Source: an uncultured Bacteroidia bacterium (GTDB taxonomy: Bacteria; Bacteroidota; Bacteroidia; Bacteroidales; UBA932). From it: a DNA stretch of 64,000 nt. The stretch is from NCBI GenBank assembly GCA_902762435.1, contig CACWOH010000001.1:62001-126000 (forward strand), in the 5' to 3' direction. This document shows, one piece after another, positions 30,170 through 38,710 of this stretch; positions within the stretch are counted from its first letter, which is position 1, and each line of letters opens with the position of its first letter. Below the pieces are notes generated by a model. That model was not told the origin of the DNA and searched no databases. It worked only from the letters and a program-made list of their open reading frames with translations. A program made the position numbers and the translations under genes.

Positions 30170-30202
30170 TTTGTCCGGTCTCGGTGAAAATTCGTATATT
30201 TG
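30170..30202 (+). promoter_or_regulatory. Promoter of the recG operon
   Basis: TTTG (30170-30173), 21 nt, TATATTTG (30195-30202). The -7 box ends 6 nt before the recG ATG, so the transcript should start at or very near the start codon. Confidence 0.7.
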
Positions 30203-30208
30203 TGGTCT

Positions 30209-32485
30209 ATGGCGAACGAACTGAATACGAGCATCCAGTACCTCGGCGGAGTCGGACCCAAGCGGGCCGAACTGCTGCGGCGTGAACTCGGGATCGAGAC
30301 CCTCTCGGACCTCATCCATCTGTATCCGTTCCGCTATATCGACCGCAGCGGGATCGTCCCCATCGCGCAGGTGGCTCCGGACGTGGCTTTCGTCCAGATC
30401 CAGGCCACCGTCGTGTCCCGGACCCTTTACGGCCCGCAGAGCGCCGTCGTCTCGCAGGAGACGAACCCCATCCACTGGGGCGCCGTCAAGCGCCTGTCCG
30501 TCATCGTGGAAGACGCGTCCGGACGCATAGAGATCGTCTTTTTCAAGGGCATCCGGTGGAACTACCAGCGGCTGGCCCCGGGCAGCACCTTCCTGTTCTT
30601 CGGCAAGCCGCAGGGGTTCAATGGACGCATGAACATCGTGCATCCGGAAGTGGACGTGCCACAGGACGGCGCGATGGCCCAGGGAACGCTGACCGGCGTC
30701 TACCCCAGCACGGAAAAACTCAAGACGGGCGGCATTACCGGGAAGGTGATGTGCAAGATGCAGGCCGCCGCCCTGTCGCTCTGCCTGCCGGAAATCCGGG
30801 AGACGCTGCCGGACTACGTCCTGCGGGACAACGCCCTGGTGCCGCTCCAGTACGCCCTGCGCAACATCCATTTCCCGAAGGACAGCTATGCGCTGCAGAA
30901 GGCCACCTACCGCCTGAAATTCGAGGAGCTCTTCTTCCTGCAGCTGTCGCTGCTGAAGCAGAAGTACATCCGTTCGCGCGGCGAGCGCGGCCTGACTATG
31001 CCCAAGGTGGGCCCGGACTTCCACGCGTGCTACAACGCCCTCCCCTACACCCTGACCGGCGCGCAGCAGCGTGTGATCAAGGAGATCCGCGCGGACCTGA
31101 CGAGCGGCCACCAGATGAACCGCCTGCTGCAGGGCGACGTGGGTTCCGGCAAGACGATGGTGGCCGTGCTGAGCTGTCTGATCGCCATCGGCAACGGTTT
31201 CCAGGCCTGCATCATGGCGCCCACCGAGGTGCTGGCGCAGCAGCATTACGCCAATATCAAGAAGTATCTCGCGCCCACTTCCGTGCAGTGTGCGCTGCTT
31301 ACGGGCAGCACCACGCAGAAGGAGCGGCGCGCCATCCACGCGGCCCTGGAGGACGGGAGCCTCGGGATCCTCGTGGGGACGCACGCCCTGCTGGAGGACA
31401 ACGTGGTCTTCCGGAATCTCGGCCTCGCCGTCATCGATGAGCAGCACCGTTTCGGAGTGGACCAAAGAGCTAAACTCTGGGCCAAAGGACCGCGTCCCGG
31501 GAGCAGCGCTCCCTCTGAAAACTTCGCTTCGCTCATCCCACCGCAGCGCTCCGCTTGCGGTCCCCCCGTTCACGAGGCCACGGGCGGCCACGGTTTTCCG
31601 AGGGAGGCTGCTCCCGGCGACGCGGCTATTCCGCCGCATGTCCTTGTTATGACAGCGACGCCGATACCGCGGACGCTGGCGATGACGCTGTACGGCGACC
31701 TGGACGTGTCGGTGATCGACGAGATGCCGCCGGGGCGCAAACCGGTGCAGACGATGTGCATCGGGCAGAACCGGCGGGCGGCGATGTACAAGTTCATGCG
31801 GGACGAGATCGCCCGCGGCCGCCAGGTATTCGTGGTCTTCCCCCTCATTTTCGAGAGCGAGAAGACGGACCTGCAAAACCTCGAGAAGGGCTACGAGGAC
31901 ATCGTGTCCGCCTTCCCGCTGCCGGACTACAAGGTCGCCATCGTCCACGGGCAGCAGAGCAACGAGGAGAAGAACTTCAACATGGCCGCCTTCGTGGCCG
32001 GCCGCGCAAACATCCTCGTGTCCACGACGGTGATCGAGGTGGGCGTGGACGTGCCCAACGCCTCGGTGATGGTGATCGAGAGCGCGCAGCGCTTCGGCCT
32101 GAGCCAGCTCCACCAGCTGCGCGGCCGGGTGGGACGCGGCGCCGAGAAGTCCTACTGCATCCTCGTGAAGGATGTCAAGACCTCCAAGGAGGCGCAGGAG
32201 CGCCTGGATCTGATGTGCCGGACCGAAGACGGCTTCGAGATCGCCGAGCAGGACATGAAGATGCGCGGCCCCGGCGACCTGGAAGGCACGCAGCAGAGCG
32301 GCCTGCCGATCAACCTCGCCATCGCATCGCTGGCGAAGGACGGCACCCTGCTGATGCAGGCGCGCGTGTACGCGGACCGCGTCCTGGACGCCGACCCCGG
32401 CCTCCAGGAGCCTCGCAACGAACTTCTTCTCAAGGAATTACGCAAAGACAAATACGACATCAAAGATTACAGCAAGATATCATGA
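30209..32485 (+). CDS. recG: ATP-dependent DNA helicase RecG carrying an in-frame inserted repeat
   Basis: Superfamily-2 helicase that reverses stalled replication forks and branch-migrates recombination intermediates. Motifs include the wedge/OB region at the N-terminus, Walker A GDVGSGKT, DEQHRFGVDQRAKLW, TATPIPRTLAM and the C-terminal TRG-like region (QLRGRVGRG). It is 758 aa, against roughly 690-710 in most bacteria. The excess is a block of about 45 residues (about 428-473) between RAKLWAKG and IPPHVLVMTATP, where orthologues normally have only a few residues. That block is encoded by the palindromic repeat described separately. The ATG at 30209 is preferred over the upstream TTG because a -7 box overlaps that region. 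First gene of a four-gene operon. Confidence 0.95.
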   Translation: MANELNTSIQYLGGVGPKRAELLRRELGIETLSDLIHLYPFRYIDRSGIVPIAQVAPDVAFVQIQATVVSRTLYGPQSAVVSQETNPIHWGAVKRLSVIVEDASGRIEIVFFKGIRWNYQRLAPGSTFLFFGKPQGFNGRMNIVHPEVDVPQDGAMAQGTLTGVYPSTEKLKTGGITGKVMCKMQAAALSLCLPEIRETLPDYVLRDNALVPLQYALRNIHFPKDSYALQKATYRLKFEELFFLQLSLLKQKYIRSRGERGLTMPKVGPDFHACYNALPYTLTGAQQRVIKEIRADLTSGHQMNRLLQGDVGSGKTMVAVLSCLIAIGNGFQACIMAPTEVLAQQHYANIKKYLAPTSVQCALLTGSTTQKERRAIHAALEDGSLGILVGTHALLEDNVVFRNLGLAVIDEQHRFGVDQRAKLWAKGPRPGSSAPSENFASLIPPQRSACGPPVHEATGGHGFPREAAPGDAAIPPHVLVMTATPIPRTLAMTLYGDLDVSVIDEMPPGRKPVQTMCIGQNRRAAMYKFMRDEIARGRQVFVVFPLIFESEKTDLQNLEKGYEDIVSAFPLPDYKVAIVHGQQSNEEKNFNMAAFVAGRANILVSTTVIEVGVDVPNASVMVIESAQRFGLSQLHQLRGRVGRGAEKSYCILVKDVKTSKEAQERLDLMCRTEDGFEIAEQDMKMRGPGDLEGTQQSGLPINLAIASLAKDGTLLMQARVYADRVLDADPGLQEPRNELLLKELRKDKYDIKDYSKIS
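31490..31625 (+). repeat. Palindromic element, copy 1, inserted in recG
   Basis: Arms of about 33 nt (31490-31522 and 31593-31625) are inverted repeats with only a few mismatches or one-base bulges; their outer parts read CCGCGTC...GACGCGG. Between them lie a small GCTTCGC loop region, a hairpin at 31540-31561 (ACCGCA/TGCGGT) and a hairpin at 31565-31584 (CCCGT/ACGGG). Positions 31565-31592 are identical to 36530-36557 in the uvrD copy. The element is read through in sense with no stop codon and places VHEATGGH in the RecG protein. No target-site duplication is obvious. Confidence 0.85.
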
Positions 32486-36230: not shown

Positions 36231-36254
36231 GATCAGGCCTGCAAGGGCCTGATC
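36231..36254. terminator. Hairpin at the thioesterase/uvrD convergent junction
   Basis: Perfect 9-bp stem GATCAGGCC / GGCCTGATC with a 6-nt loop. It starts immediately after the thioesterase stop and encodes the last uvrD codons on the other strand. There is no T-run, so it may act only as an mRNA end stabiliser. Confidence 0.4.
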
Positions 36255-38710
36255 TTCGCGTATTTGAGCAGGAGGAGCTTTTCGCCGTGGGCGTCGAAGC
36301 GGATGCGCGCCTTCATGTCGGGGGCGCTGCCGCTGAGTTCCAGGACGGTTCCGGGGCCGAAACGGTTGTGTTCTATGCGCTGTCCTACGGACAGTTCCGT
36401 CATCGGAACGCCTACGAAGTCAGCATCGGAGAGCATCTTTTCCACCATTCCGGCAGGAGAACCGGCTTGCCTCCGGATAGGTTCGGGGCTTCGCCCCTCA
36501 TCCCTCCCACTGCTTCGCAGCGGGCCCCTCCCGTTCACGAGGCCACGGGCGGCCACGCCTCCCGGAGGCAAGCGGTTCTCCCTGCCTGCAGAAGTCCCAC
36601 TCCGACGTTCAAATCGAGTTCCTGAGGACTGACCGTATGCCCCGCCCCCAACACCGAAACGTTCCAGCCGGCCGCCGGTAAAGCGGGATCCGAAGCCGCC
36701 CCACTCGTGGGTAACGCCGGAACTGTCGAAATCCGCCTCGTCCAGGGGACTGTCCAGATACTGCGGGTCGATCTCCTTCAGGAAGCGCGACGGCGCGTTG
36801 GACTCGTGCTTGCCGTTGCGCATCCGCGTCCCGGCGAAGGCGAGGCCCACCGCCCGCTTGGCGCGCGTGACGGCCACGTAGAACAGGCGCCGTTCCTCCT
36901 CGACATCCGACTTCGAAGAAAGCATCGTAAGGCTCGGGAACAGGTTCTCTTCCAGCCCGGCCACGTACACGTAGGGGAATTCCAGGCCCTTGGAGGAATG
37001 AACCGTCATCAGCGCCACCTTGTTGTTGGTGTCGCCGTCTTCCGTGACGTCCACGTTGCTCAGCAGCGAGACGTTCTCGAGAAAGTCGTCCAGGGTGAAC
37101 ACGCCCACCACTCCCCCTTCGTCCGCGTAGTCTTCCGCCTCCTCTTCCCGCTCCTCGACGAACTGCGCCACCGAGTTGAGCAGCTCGTCCAGGTTGGCCG
37201 TACGGGACAGCCCCTCGATGGAGGTATCCTGCTTGTAGAAGGCATACAGGCCGCTCTCGTCCGCGATCCGCTTCGCCAGCTCGTGGGCGTCCGTGACCGG
37301 CACGAGGCCGGACAGGCGTTCGATCATCTGGCAGAAGGGCTGCACCTTGGGCACTTCGCGCGCCGCCTGGAACAGCGGAATCCCCTGCTGCTGGGAAACG
37401 GCCTCCACGGCCCCCAGGGCCTTGTCGCCGATGCCGCGGGCGGGCTTGTTCACCACCCGGCGGAACGATTCGTCGTCGCGGGGGTTGACCACCAGCTTGA
37501 AATAGGCCATCATGTCCTTGACCTCCGCCCGGTCGAAGAAGGAGTTGCCGGAGTAGATCATATAGGGGATGTTGCGCCGGCGGAGCTGCTCCTCCAGCGC
37601 GCGGGACTGCGAATTGGTGCGGTAGAGGATGGCGAAATCCTGGTACTGCGCCCGCCTGGAACGCATCCGCTCCATGATGTCGGCGACGATCATCACCGCC
37701 TCCTCCTGCTCCGTGTAGGCCTTGATCACGTGGAGGCGCTCCCCCGCTTCGCCCACGGCGTAGCAGTTCTTGGGGATGCGTCCCTCGTTGTGGGCGATCA
37801 CGGAATTGGCCGCGTCCACGATGGTCTGCGTGGACCGGTAGTTCCGTTCGAGGCGGAAGAGCCGGCATTCCGGGTAGTCCTTCTTGAAATTCAGGATGTT
37901 CTCGATGCGCGCCCCGCGGAAGGCGTAGATGGACTGGCTGTCGTCGCCCACCACGCAGATGTTCCGGTGGAACTGCGCGAGTTTCTTGAGGATGAGGTAC
38001 TGGGCGGCGTTGGTGTCCTGGTACTCGTCCACCAGGATGTGCGTGAAGCGGCCCGCGATGGACTCCAGCGCCCCGCGGTCGTCCCGCAGCAGGATGTTCA
38101 TGTTCAGCAGGATGTCGTCGAAGTCCATCACCCCGCTCTGCCTGAGTTTCAGCTGGTAACGCTCATAGACCTCGCCCAGGCGCGGCCGCTTGGCGAAATA
38201 GTCCTGCTTCTGGAGTTCCGGGCTGGCCTGGTAGGCCTTCACCGTGATCAGGTTGTTCTTCGCCGAGGAGATGCGGGCGAGGACGTCCTTGGGCTTGTAT
38301 ACCTTGTCGTCGAGCCCCATCTCCTTGAGGCAGGCCTTGACGGCGCTCTGGGAATCGGAGGTGTCGTAGATCGTGAAGTTCACCGGATAGCCCAGCGCAT
38401 CGGCATACTCCCGCAGGAAGCGCACGAACACGGCGTGGAAGGTACCCATCACCACCCGCCGCAGGCTGCGGTCCCCCACCATCGCGGCGATCCGCTCCTT
38501 CATCTCCCCCGCGGCCTTCTTCGTGAAGGTGAGCGCCAGGACGCGCGCATCCTTCTGCAAGGCAAGGATATAGGCCACCCGGCTTGTCAGCACCCTCGTT
38601 TTTCCCGAACCCGCACCGGCCACGATCAGTTCCGGCCCTTCCACACAGGTGACGGCAGATTTCTGCTCGTCGTTCAACCCTTCCAGGATCATTTGCTCTT
38701 TCTCCTTCAT
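36233..38710 (-). CDS. uvrD: UvrD/PcrA-type DNA helicase carrying an in-frame inserted repeat
   Basis: Superfamily-1 3'-5' helicase for nucleotide excision and mismatch repair and for clearing recombinase from DNA. The 825-aa protein has Walker A VAGAGSGKTRVLTSR, DEYQDTNAAQY, QSIYAFRGA and the C-terminal VALMTVHSSKGLEF and YVAVTRAKRA motifs. The C-terminal Tudor-like domain (GQRIEHNRFGPGTVLE) is intact. The linker before it, about residues 709-753, is encoded by the same palindromic repeat found in recG, read here from the opposite strand (AARGLVNGR). Without that block the protein would be about 780 aa, near the family norm. A -7-like box (TATTTTCG) lies 7 nt before the ATG. Confidence 0.95.
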   Translation of the reverse strand: MKEKEQMILEGLNDEQKSAVTCVEGPELIVAGAGSGKTRVLTSRVAYILALQKDARVLALTFTKKAAGEMKERIAAMVGDRSLRRVVMGTFHAVFVRFLREYADALGYPVNFTIYDTSDSQSAVKACLKEMGLDDKVYKPKDVLARISSAKNNLITVKAYQASPELQKQDYFAKRPRLGEVYERYQLKLRQSGVMDFDDILLNMNILLRDDRGALESIAGRFTHILVDEYQDTNAAQYLILKKLAQFHRNICVVGDDSQSIYAFRGARIENILNFKKDYPECRLFRLERNYRSTQTIVDAANSVIAHNEGRIPKNCYAVGEAGERLHVIKAYTEQEEAVMIVADIMERMRSRRAQYQDFAILYRTNSQSRALEEQLRRRNIPYMIYSGNSFFDRAEVKDMMAYFKLVVNPRDDESFRRVVNKPARGIGDKALGAVEAVSQQQGIPLFQAAREVPKVQPFCQMIERLSGLVPVTDAHELAKRIADESGLYAFYKQDTSIEGLSRTANLDELLNSVAQFVEEREEEAEDYADEGGVVGVFTLDDFLENVSLLSNVDVTEDGDTNNKVALMTVHSSKGLEFPYVYVAGLEENLFPSLTMLSSKSDVEEERRLFYVAVTRAKRAVGLAFAGTRMRNGKHESNAPSRFLKEIDPQYLDSPLDEADFDSSGVTHEWGGFGSRFTGGRLERFGVGGGAYGQSSGTRFERRSGTSAGRENRLPPGGVAARGLVNGRGPLRSSGRDEGRSPEPIRRQAGSPAGMVEKMLSDADFVGVPMTELSVGQRIEHNRFGPGTVLELSGSAPDMKARIRFDAHGEKLLLLKYAKIRPLQA
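36452..36586 (+). repeat. Palindromic element, copy 2, inserted in uvrD (antisense)
   Basis: Arms at 36452-36481 and 36558-36586 pair over about 28 positions with small bulges. Inside are three hairpins: 36485-36497 (GGGGC/GCCCC), 36506-36524 (CCCxCTGC/GCAGxGGG) and 36530-36549 (CCCGT/ACGGG). Positions 36530-36557 are identical to the recG copy. The arm sequence differs from the recG copy but remains self-complementary. The strand that matches the recG sense strand is antisense to uvrD, yet the uvrD frame stays open. Confidence 0.85.

Follow-up and report, generated by a model that had tools for sequence, protein, structure and literature searches.

The window analysed here is a stretch of 64,000 nt from the genome of an uncultured Bacteroidia bacterium (G000), and its recG and uvrD genes each carry an in-frame copy of the same palindromic element. 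The genes and the parts of the element are listed below by window position.

30200..32485, plus strand: recG, host gene of the element, with the Pfam domains RecG_wedge, DEAD, Helicase_C and RecG_dom3_C flanking the insert on both sides
31490..31625, plus strand: palindromic element, copy 1, 136 nt, subfamily A, oriented as recG
31490..31522, plus strand: 5' arm of the recG element, last bases AAAAC, a 33-nt inverted self-match with 91% identity
31508..31508, plus strand: single bulged G in the recG element, base 15 of the 5' arm, numbering from the core end
31534..31591, plus strand: conserved core, matched by the covariance model R1 with 79.2 bits and E 4.5e-16 (this core is among the 19 sequences used to build R1)
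31540..31561, plus strand: core hairpin 2 (ACCGC...GCGGT) of the recG element, from the sequence, core alignment A3 and the fold
31565..31568, plus strand: 5' side of hairpin 3 (CCCG), partner 31581-31584 (CGGG); CCCG/CGGG marks subfamily A and CCCT/AGGG subfamily B
31576..31579, plus strand: 5' side of a proposed pseudoknot (GGCC), partner 31586-31589; outer pair A-T, G-C or T-A in 94 of 100 readable copies
31593..31625, plus strand: 3' arm of the recG element, first bases GTTTT, inverted match to the 5' arm
36233..38710, minus strand: uvrD, host gene of copy 2, with the Pfam domains UvrD_C and PcrA_UvrD_tudor, one on each side of the insert
36452..36586, plus strand: palindromic element, copy 2, antisense to uvrD, from the 28-nt identity, R1 and the fold; ends set by eye

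The preliminary description of this locus held that RecG is about 45 residues too long and that the excess is bounded by inverted repeats of about 33 nt, and both points proved correct: the insert site measures 144 nt here and 12 or 15 nt in five measured insert-free relatives, so that 132 nt net (44 residues) have been added relative to the 12-nt form, and 31490-31522 matches 31593-31625 in inverted orientation. The reading frame, described as passing through the block, is indeed open throughout, with no stop within the gene. Folded as single-stranded RNA, the block reaches -83.9 kcal/mol, whereas shuffled versions average -56.8 (z -6.7) and none of 200 shuffles equals it. The 28-mer at 31565-31592, reported as common to recG and uvrD, recurs exactly at 36530-36557 and had no match in 100 shuffles even when three mismatches were allowed; R1 also finds the uvrD copy (36499-36556, E 1.7e-12). 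As to the extent of the element, the 136-nt palindrome is real, though the net gain is 132 nt, while the view of its dispersed part has to be widened, as not only the 28-mer but the whole element occurs genome-wide. The candidate explanation that the arms derive from the target gene is unsupported at recG, where the net gain is about the whole palindrome.

An alignment of 30 RecG proteins (31 of the 61 matched genomes were left out) contained 26 insert-free orthologues and four proteins with an insert at this site: that of the window, that of G015, which has the same element, and those of G027 and G009, which have other inserts. In G015 the element has the opposite orientation and different arms at an equal site length (144 nt), so that the encoded peptide differs from that of the window. 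With a reversed element, a different peptide and abundant copies elsewhere, the outcome that the preliminary description had set against its own proposal, conservation at the protein level with no copies beyond uvrD, is not what we see. The recG site of G008, a close relative of both G000 and G015, is empty, and the opposite orientations in the latter two could therefore be due to inversion or to two insertions. This loop looks as if it were an insertion hot spot or a very permissive site. The inserts in G027 (L033) and G009 (L037) are likewise in frame and are unlike the palindromic element.

The element belongs to a dispersed family. When the recG copy was used as a DNA query, 44 matches at E<=10 were obtained in this genome, and the first 22 (E<=1e-6) share 74-100% identity with it. 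Since early alignments that contained the arms (A1 and A2) misaligned them, the covariance model R1 was built on 19 aligned cores (alignment A3), its structure being hairpins 2 and 3. At E<=1 it has 42 matches in this 2.3-Mb genome, about 40 of which are real, in agreement with the scattered copies anticipated by the preliminary description; C7:87265 looks like a chance match, C1:6 and C35:37 are apparently parts of a single copy split between contigs, and two further matches are interrupted by contig ends. The two most similar copies share 97% identity over 117 nt. In a search of 101 genomes, made with stricter filters, R1 had matches at E<=0.001 in 52 genomes, comprising 51 of the 61 genomes of the same genus (this one included) and one of the 40 others, with 1 to 40 copies per R1-positive genome of the genus. 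These are draft genomes, many assembled from metagenomes, and counts in distant species are probably low, because R1 was built from this genome.

The exact core pattern is present in at least 118 stretches of named genomes, and all 80 matches listed carry the names Bacteroidales, Bacteroidia, Bacteroidaceae, Candidatus Cryptobacteroides or Candidatus Merdivivens; the genus carrying the element is probably Candidatus Cryptobacteroides or its kin. Viral carriage was considered and rejected, the exact core pattern being missing from the viral contigs searched (viral_contigs set). A described Rfam RNA was likewise rejected: in the window and 20 loci of the same genome no family exceeds its gathering score at the element, the only hits above threshold being a tRNA and a small SRP RNA away from it, and cold-seep-1 overlaps the element at 15.2 bits, far under its cut-off of 125.8. 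No account of this family was found among the papers listed on palindromic elements in Bacteroidetes or Cryptobacteroides, on Rickettsia palindromic elements and on REPINs, a literature without most subscription journals and without bioRxiv preprints.

Read in the recG orientation, the element consists of the 5' arm, AAAC, hairpins 1, 2 and 3, GTTT and the 3' arm. In 81 copies from three genomes, the stem of hairpin 3 is CCCG/CGGG in 46 (a G-C pair, subfamily A), CCCT/AGGG in 27 (a T-A pair, subfamily B) and other in eight. The bases GCC within the loop of hairpin 3 are able to pair with a GGC directly behind the hairpin, and in 100 readable copies the next outward pair is A-T 47 times, G-C 33 times and T-A 14 times (seven of the 107 tried were off pattern; of the 100, five were misread by the pattern and one has a mismatch). 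This covarying outer pair supports a putative pseudoknot within a single strand.

The arms differ wholly in sequence between many copies and are still complementary within each. In 32 of the 42 matches of this genome, pairing between the two sides exceeds that in every one of 30 shuffles, and four of the ten that fail this test are contig-end cuts or chance matches. Classical MITEs are marked by conserved terminal inverted repeats and a target-site duplication. Here the sequence of the terminal repeats is not conserved between copies, and the comparison of sites in G071 and G023 (see below) yielded neither an exact element boundary nor a target duplication. A bulged base 15 positions from the core end in the 5' arm is found in 19 of 34 copies with readable arms in this genome and in 6 of 54 in other genomes; it is C in 21 of these 25 cases.

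Arm mismatches are distributed unequally between the strands. On the recG strand, C.T outnumbers A.G by 87 to 9 and A.C outnumbers G.T by 73 to 41 in 88 of 107 copies (the 19 copies that gave no arms were left out); the ratios are 81:9 and 72:39 when each local context is counted once, and there is little or no asymmetry in C.C versus G.G (20:10) and T.T versus A.A (13:10). Read on the opposite strand, the mismatches in excess are G.A and G.T, which are the gentler ones. Among 64 distinct hairpins with a three-base loop, GNA triloops occur 36 times on the opposite (minus) strand and once on the recG (plus) strand; GNA loops closed by C-G form very stable small DNA hairpins. The mismatch and loop asymmetries together suggest that the strand opposite to recG may be the one that folds and works.

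We then considered the position of the copies relative to genes. After removal of C18:36041, C1:6, C35:37 and C17:45953 (contig ends) and C7:87265 (chance), 37 of the 42 R1 matches were usable, of which 17 lie in frame in long ORFs with Pfam matches and 20 lie outside any gene recognised by Pfam. Eleven of the 17 intragenic copies have domain support on both sides or lie inside a domain, and six have it on one side only. The host genes encode RecG, UvrD, a PG_1098/THUMP-like protein (two copies in one gene), two TldD/PmbA proteins, an HI0933-like flavoprotein, GcvP2, a DsbD-like protein, RsmF, a Radical_SAM_N-domain protein, a tyrosine recombinase (Phage_integrase), a SpoU methylase, RibF (FAD_syn and Flavokinase), an RNB-domain protein, an HHH_3 protein and a Methyltrans_SAM protein. 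The net length differences are multiples of three in all four cases measured, namely 132 nt in recG, 108 nt at C13:16620, and 114 nt at C48 and 84 nt at C2, the last two counted by eye; orthologues were compared across relatives for recG and otherwise between G071 and G023.

The element has the same orientation as its host gene in seven cases and the opposite one in ten, and on account of this lack of bias a role as RNA within the host message was rejected. Avoidance of stop codons by intragenic copies was rejected too, the number of open frames not differing significantly between intragenic and other copies (3.9 versus 3.45 of six, p 0.21). All five intragenic copies of subfamily A have TTCAC in the core, compared with one among the others. 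At G000:C6:64013-64681 a single gene contains two copies, 612 nt apart and 96% identical over 123 nt.

The behaviour of individual copies was followed in the sister species G071 and G023, which are 91% identical over one 4.4-kb stretch and 85% identical in the flanks compared. Based on 22 of 28 R1 matches in G071 and 17 of 21 in G023 at E<=0.01, eleven element sites are shared, one of which (C14:19531) was paired by the left flank only, its right flank ending at a contig end. Over the eleven sites, identity is 96% in the core (599/623), a figure partly inflated because the copies were found by their cores, 85% in the flanks (2863/3365) and 80% in the arms (641/804); the better conservation of the core than of the flanks suggests that it may be constrained in place. 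At eight of the eleven sites the single best match of a core is its orthologue, and copy-specific cores have thus been inherited vertically there.

The arms, in turn, change in pairs. Of the 293 arm positions compared, 46 differ between the species on the left side and 51 on the right side, and both sides differ at 29 compared with 8.0 expected (p 7e-15); 26 of these 29 double changes are Watson-Crick in both species, in a count that took only positions facing each other in both species and so favours pairing. In addition, the core is inverted relative to the flanks at four of the eleven shared sites, and a further inverted core was read by eye at C80. Ten further sites of G071 were sought in G023, seven of them informative (C68, C33 and C9 were not, and C29 was left out). 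The core is missing in G023 at four of the ten, with a small palindrome remaining at one of the four; at the uvrD site G023 has kept both arms and lost the core. Of the two other informative sites, one has the element in the same orientation and the other has it reversed. Such presence/absence differences between species would be compatible with gain as well as with loss.

Opposite orientations could in principle reflect independent insertions at shared hot spots instead of inversion in place. The recG site, which holds different inserts in several species and is empty in G008, speaks for this. Most inverted G071/G023 pairs, on the other hand, keep arms that are alike in flank orientation, and the pair C20/C5:38872 has in addition an unusual core variant in common (CACATAGCC...GGCTAT), so that here a single inherited copy has been turned around. 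The inverted pair C31/C6:16557, with arms just 33/57 identical, makes a weaker case. We consider independent insertion a quite improbable explanation of the inversions.

The conservation of the core also raises the question whether the cell benefits from it as a structured site in RNA or DNA, which selection would maintain in each place, its spread being secondary. The core identity of 96% against 85% in the flanks, the covarying pseudoknot pair and the vertical inheritance at eight of eleven sites would all fit, and a site of this kind is nevertheless hard to reconcile with the lack of a favoured orientation to host genes, the many sites with an inverted or missing core, the lack of an Rfam match above threshold and the 10 of 61 genus genomes without an R1 match at E<=0.001; overall we hold it to be rather improbable. 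A cellular role is unneeded for most of the data, but a purely selfish element would not fully account for the high conservation of each core at its site.

We prefer to interpret the number of copies, their spread through the genus, the structured core with its complementary free arms, the presence/absence differences, the paired changes and the core inversions as a family of short non-autonomous mobile palindromes, which are found in and between genes and are tolerated in frame in proteins (probability about 0.7). The changes within the palindromes may arise when replication switches template inside the hairpin, copying one arm onto the other and possibly reversing the spacer, and we infer that this one process could explain both the paired arm changes and the core inversions. 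Precedents exist: in yeast, polymerase template switching between imperfect inverted repeats homogenises the arms and inverts the spacer (PMC8604942), and template switching has been proposed to create and maintain RNA hairpins (PMC8794818). In such quasipalindromes, as would be the case here, arm homogenisation and spacer inversion come from one process; there it is a mutation process at scattered sites, whereas here a dispersed family with a conserved core would be affected.

For the mobility of the mobile palindromes, single-strand DNA transposases of the HUH/Y1 kind are candidates. Y1 matches are common in the genus (54 of 71 genomes at E<=0.001), and this genome has three Y1_Tnp matches at E<=0.001, one of them above the cut-off, and five Y1-protein matches at E<=1e-10. 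In the 61 genus genomes covered by both searches the element and Y1 occur together in 44, the element only in seven, Y1 only in two and neither in eight (p 7.6e-5); in genomes at least 90% complete the numbers are 20, 3, 0 and 3 in the same order (p 0.008), and with the protein search they are 46, 5, 3 and 7 (p 1.7e-4), all three p values ignoring the relatedness among genomes. By the protein search, then, Y1 has no match in five of 51 element-bearing genomes and is present in three of ten element-free ones. There is no clear R1 match near Y1 genes in 64 stretches (one place was included twice), which represent a subset of the Y1 genes of the genus with flanks of mostly about 1.5-2.5 kb, some ended by contig ends; the weak matches are one in L171 (E 0.0014, about 2.3 kb off) and another with E 0.69. 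A Y1 transposase as the regular neighbour of the element is therefore unsupported in these stretches, and the Y1 subfamily of L141 was rejected as a general partner, since apart from this genome only G082, G008 and G015 have close relatives of it (at least 66% identity). Many Y1 genes have their own hairpins alongside, and there seem to be several separate REP-like systems in the genus. The three Y1 genes L140, L141 and L142 of this genome (G000 C10, C14 and C5) are each flanked by different hairpin repeats.

These observations bear on whether the element is a REPIN of a RAYT (TnpA-REP) system, that is, two inverted REPs moved by a dedicated, usually adjoining HUH transposase. The hairpins are of similar size, REPINs are likewise hairpin-forming, non-autonomous and present in many copies per genome, compensatory changes are known in them too (PMC3116915), Y1 (RAYT-like) genes are present in this genome, common in the genus and co-occur with the element, and Bacteroidetes possess their own TnpA-REP subclass with atypical structures (PMC6006769). 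The layout, however, is reversed: REPINs have conserved ends and a variable spacer (PMC3116915), whereas our element has a conserved multi-hairpin core and free, pairing arms. REPINs are also extragenic, in contrast to the often intragenic element, and no clear copy lies in the flanks of the 64 Y1 stretches. By the tests made, that is, by its conserved part and the RAYT neighbourhood, the element is not a REPIN, and we regard this assignment as unlikely.

The mobile palindromes would move as one folded strand, the one opposite to recG, on which an HUH/Y1 transposase supplied in trans would act; we put this forward tentatively, as somewhat short of an even chance. A more far-reaching possibility, which we think doubtful, is a class of mobile hairpins in which the enzyme would recognise nothing but the form of the stem and of the folded core, with ends free in sequence. 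The core would then be a functional single-stranded DNA structure under selection at every site, and its inversion in place would be an active process and not the result of accidental errors of replication.

Rickettsia palindromic elements (RPEs), with which the preliminary description had drawn a parallel in principle, are an apt comparison in kind, made by description and not by sequence; Rickettsia belongs to another phylum. They are about 150 bp long and dispersed, with 44 in R. conorii, nearly half of which lie within unrelated ORFs (PMC10969869). Both families are palindromic and dispersed, consist of hairpins of about 100-150 nt and have a large share of in-frame copies in unrelated genes, and by anatomy and habit the element works like RPEs. 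A conserved core with free arms and core inversion, as found here, are unmentioned for RPEs in the available part of PMC10969869. ERIC and other enterobacterial small repeats (RU) are also small mobile repeats that occur within genes (PMC2759123, PMC2229807); they have different hosts, and the likeness is one of description.

Rickettsia has been singled out for the frequent in-frame fusion of palindromic elements with proteins, and whether other prokaryotes match it was posed as a question (PMC10969869). The element provides such an in-frame example from the gut and rumen, and since dozens of species of this lineage have been sequenced, gain, loss and tolerance by proteins become measurable. 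Its shared sites are a natural experiment on template switching, with paired arm change and core inversion in the same palindromes. Protein-embedded palindromic mobile DNA is known as such; the reversal of the REPIN layout, the paired arm changes and the inversion of the core in place are new. Compared with the preliminary description, it is further evident that the centre and not the arms is conserved and that 20 of the 37 usable copies lie outside Pfam-recognised genes.

Other repeats were found close to some of the copies. A short-repeat cluster at G023:C25:2821-4976 has many matches to a flank of the G071 copy C68:9078. In the genome of the window, another dispersed repeat, about 120 nt long, occurs at ten places at E<=0.001, the query included. 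In two host genes, one TldD/PmbA-like and the other RsmF-like (L017:1600-1725, corresponding to G000:C7:13656-13781, and G000:C2:82278-82398), it follows directly downstream of the palindrome.
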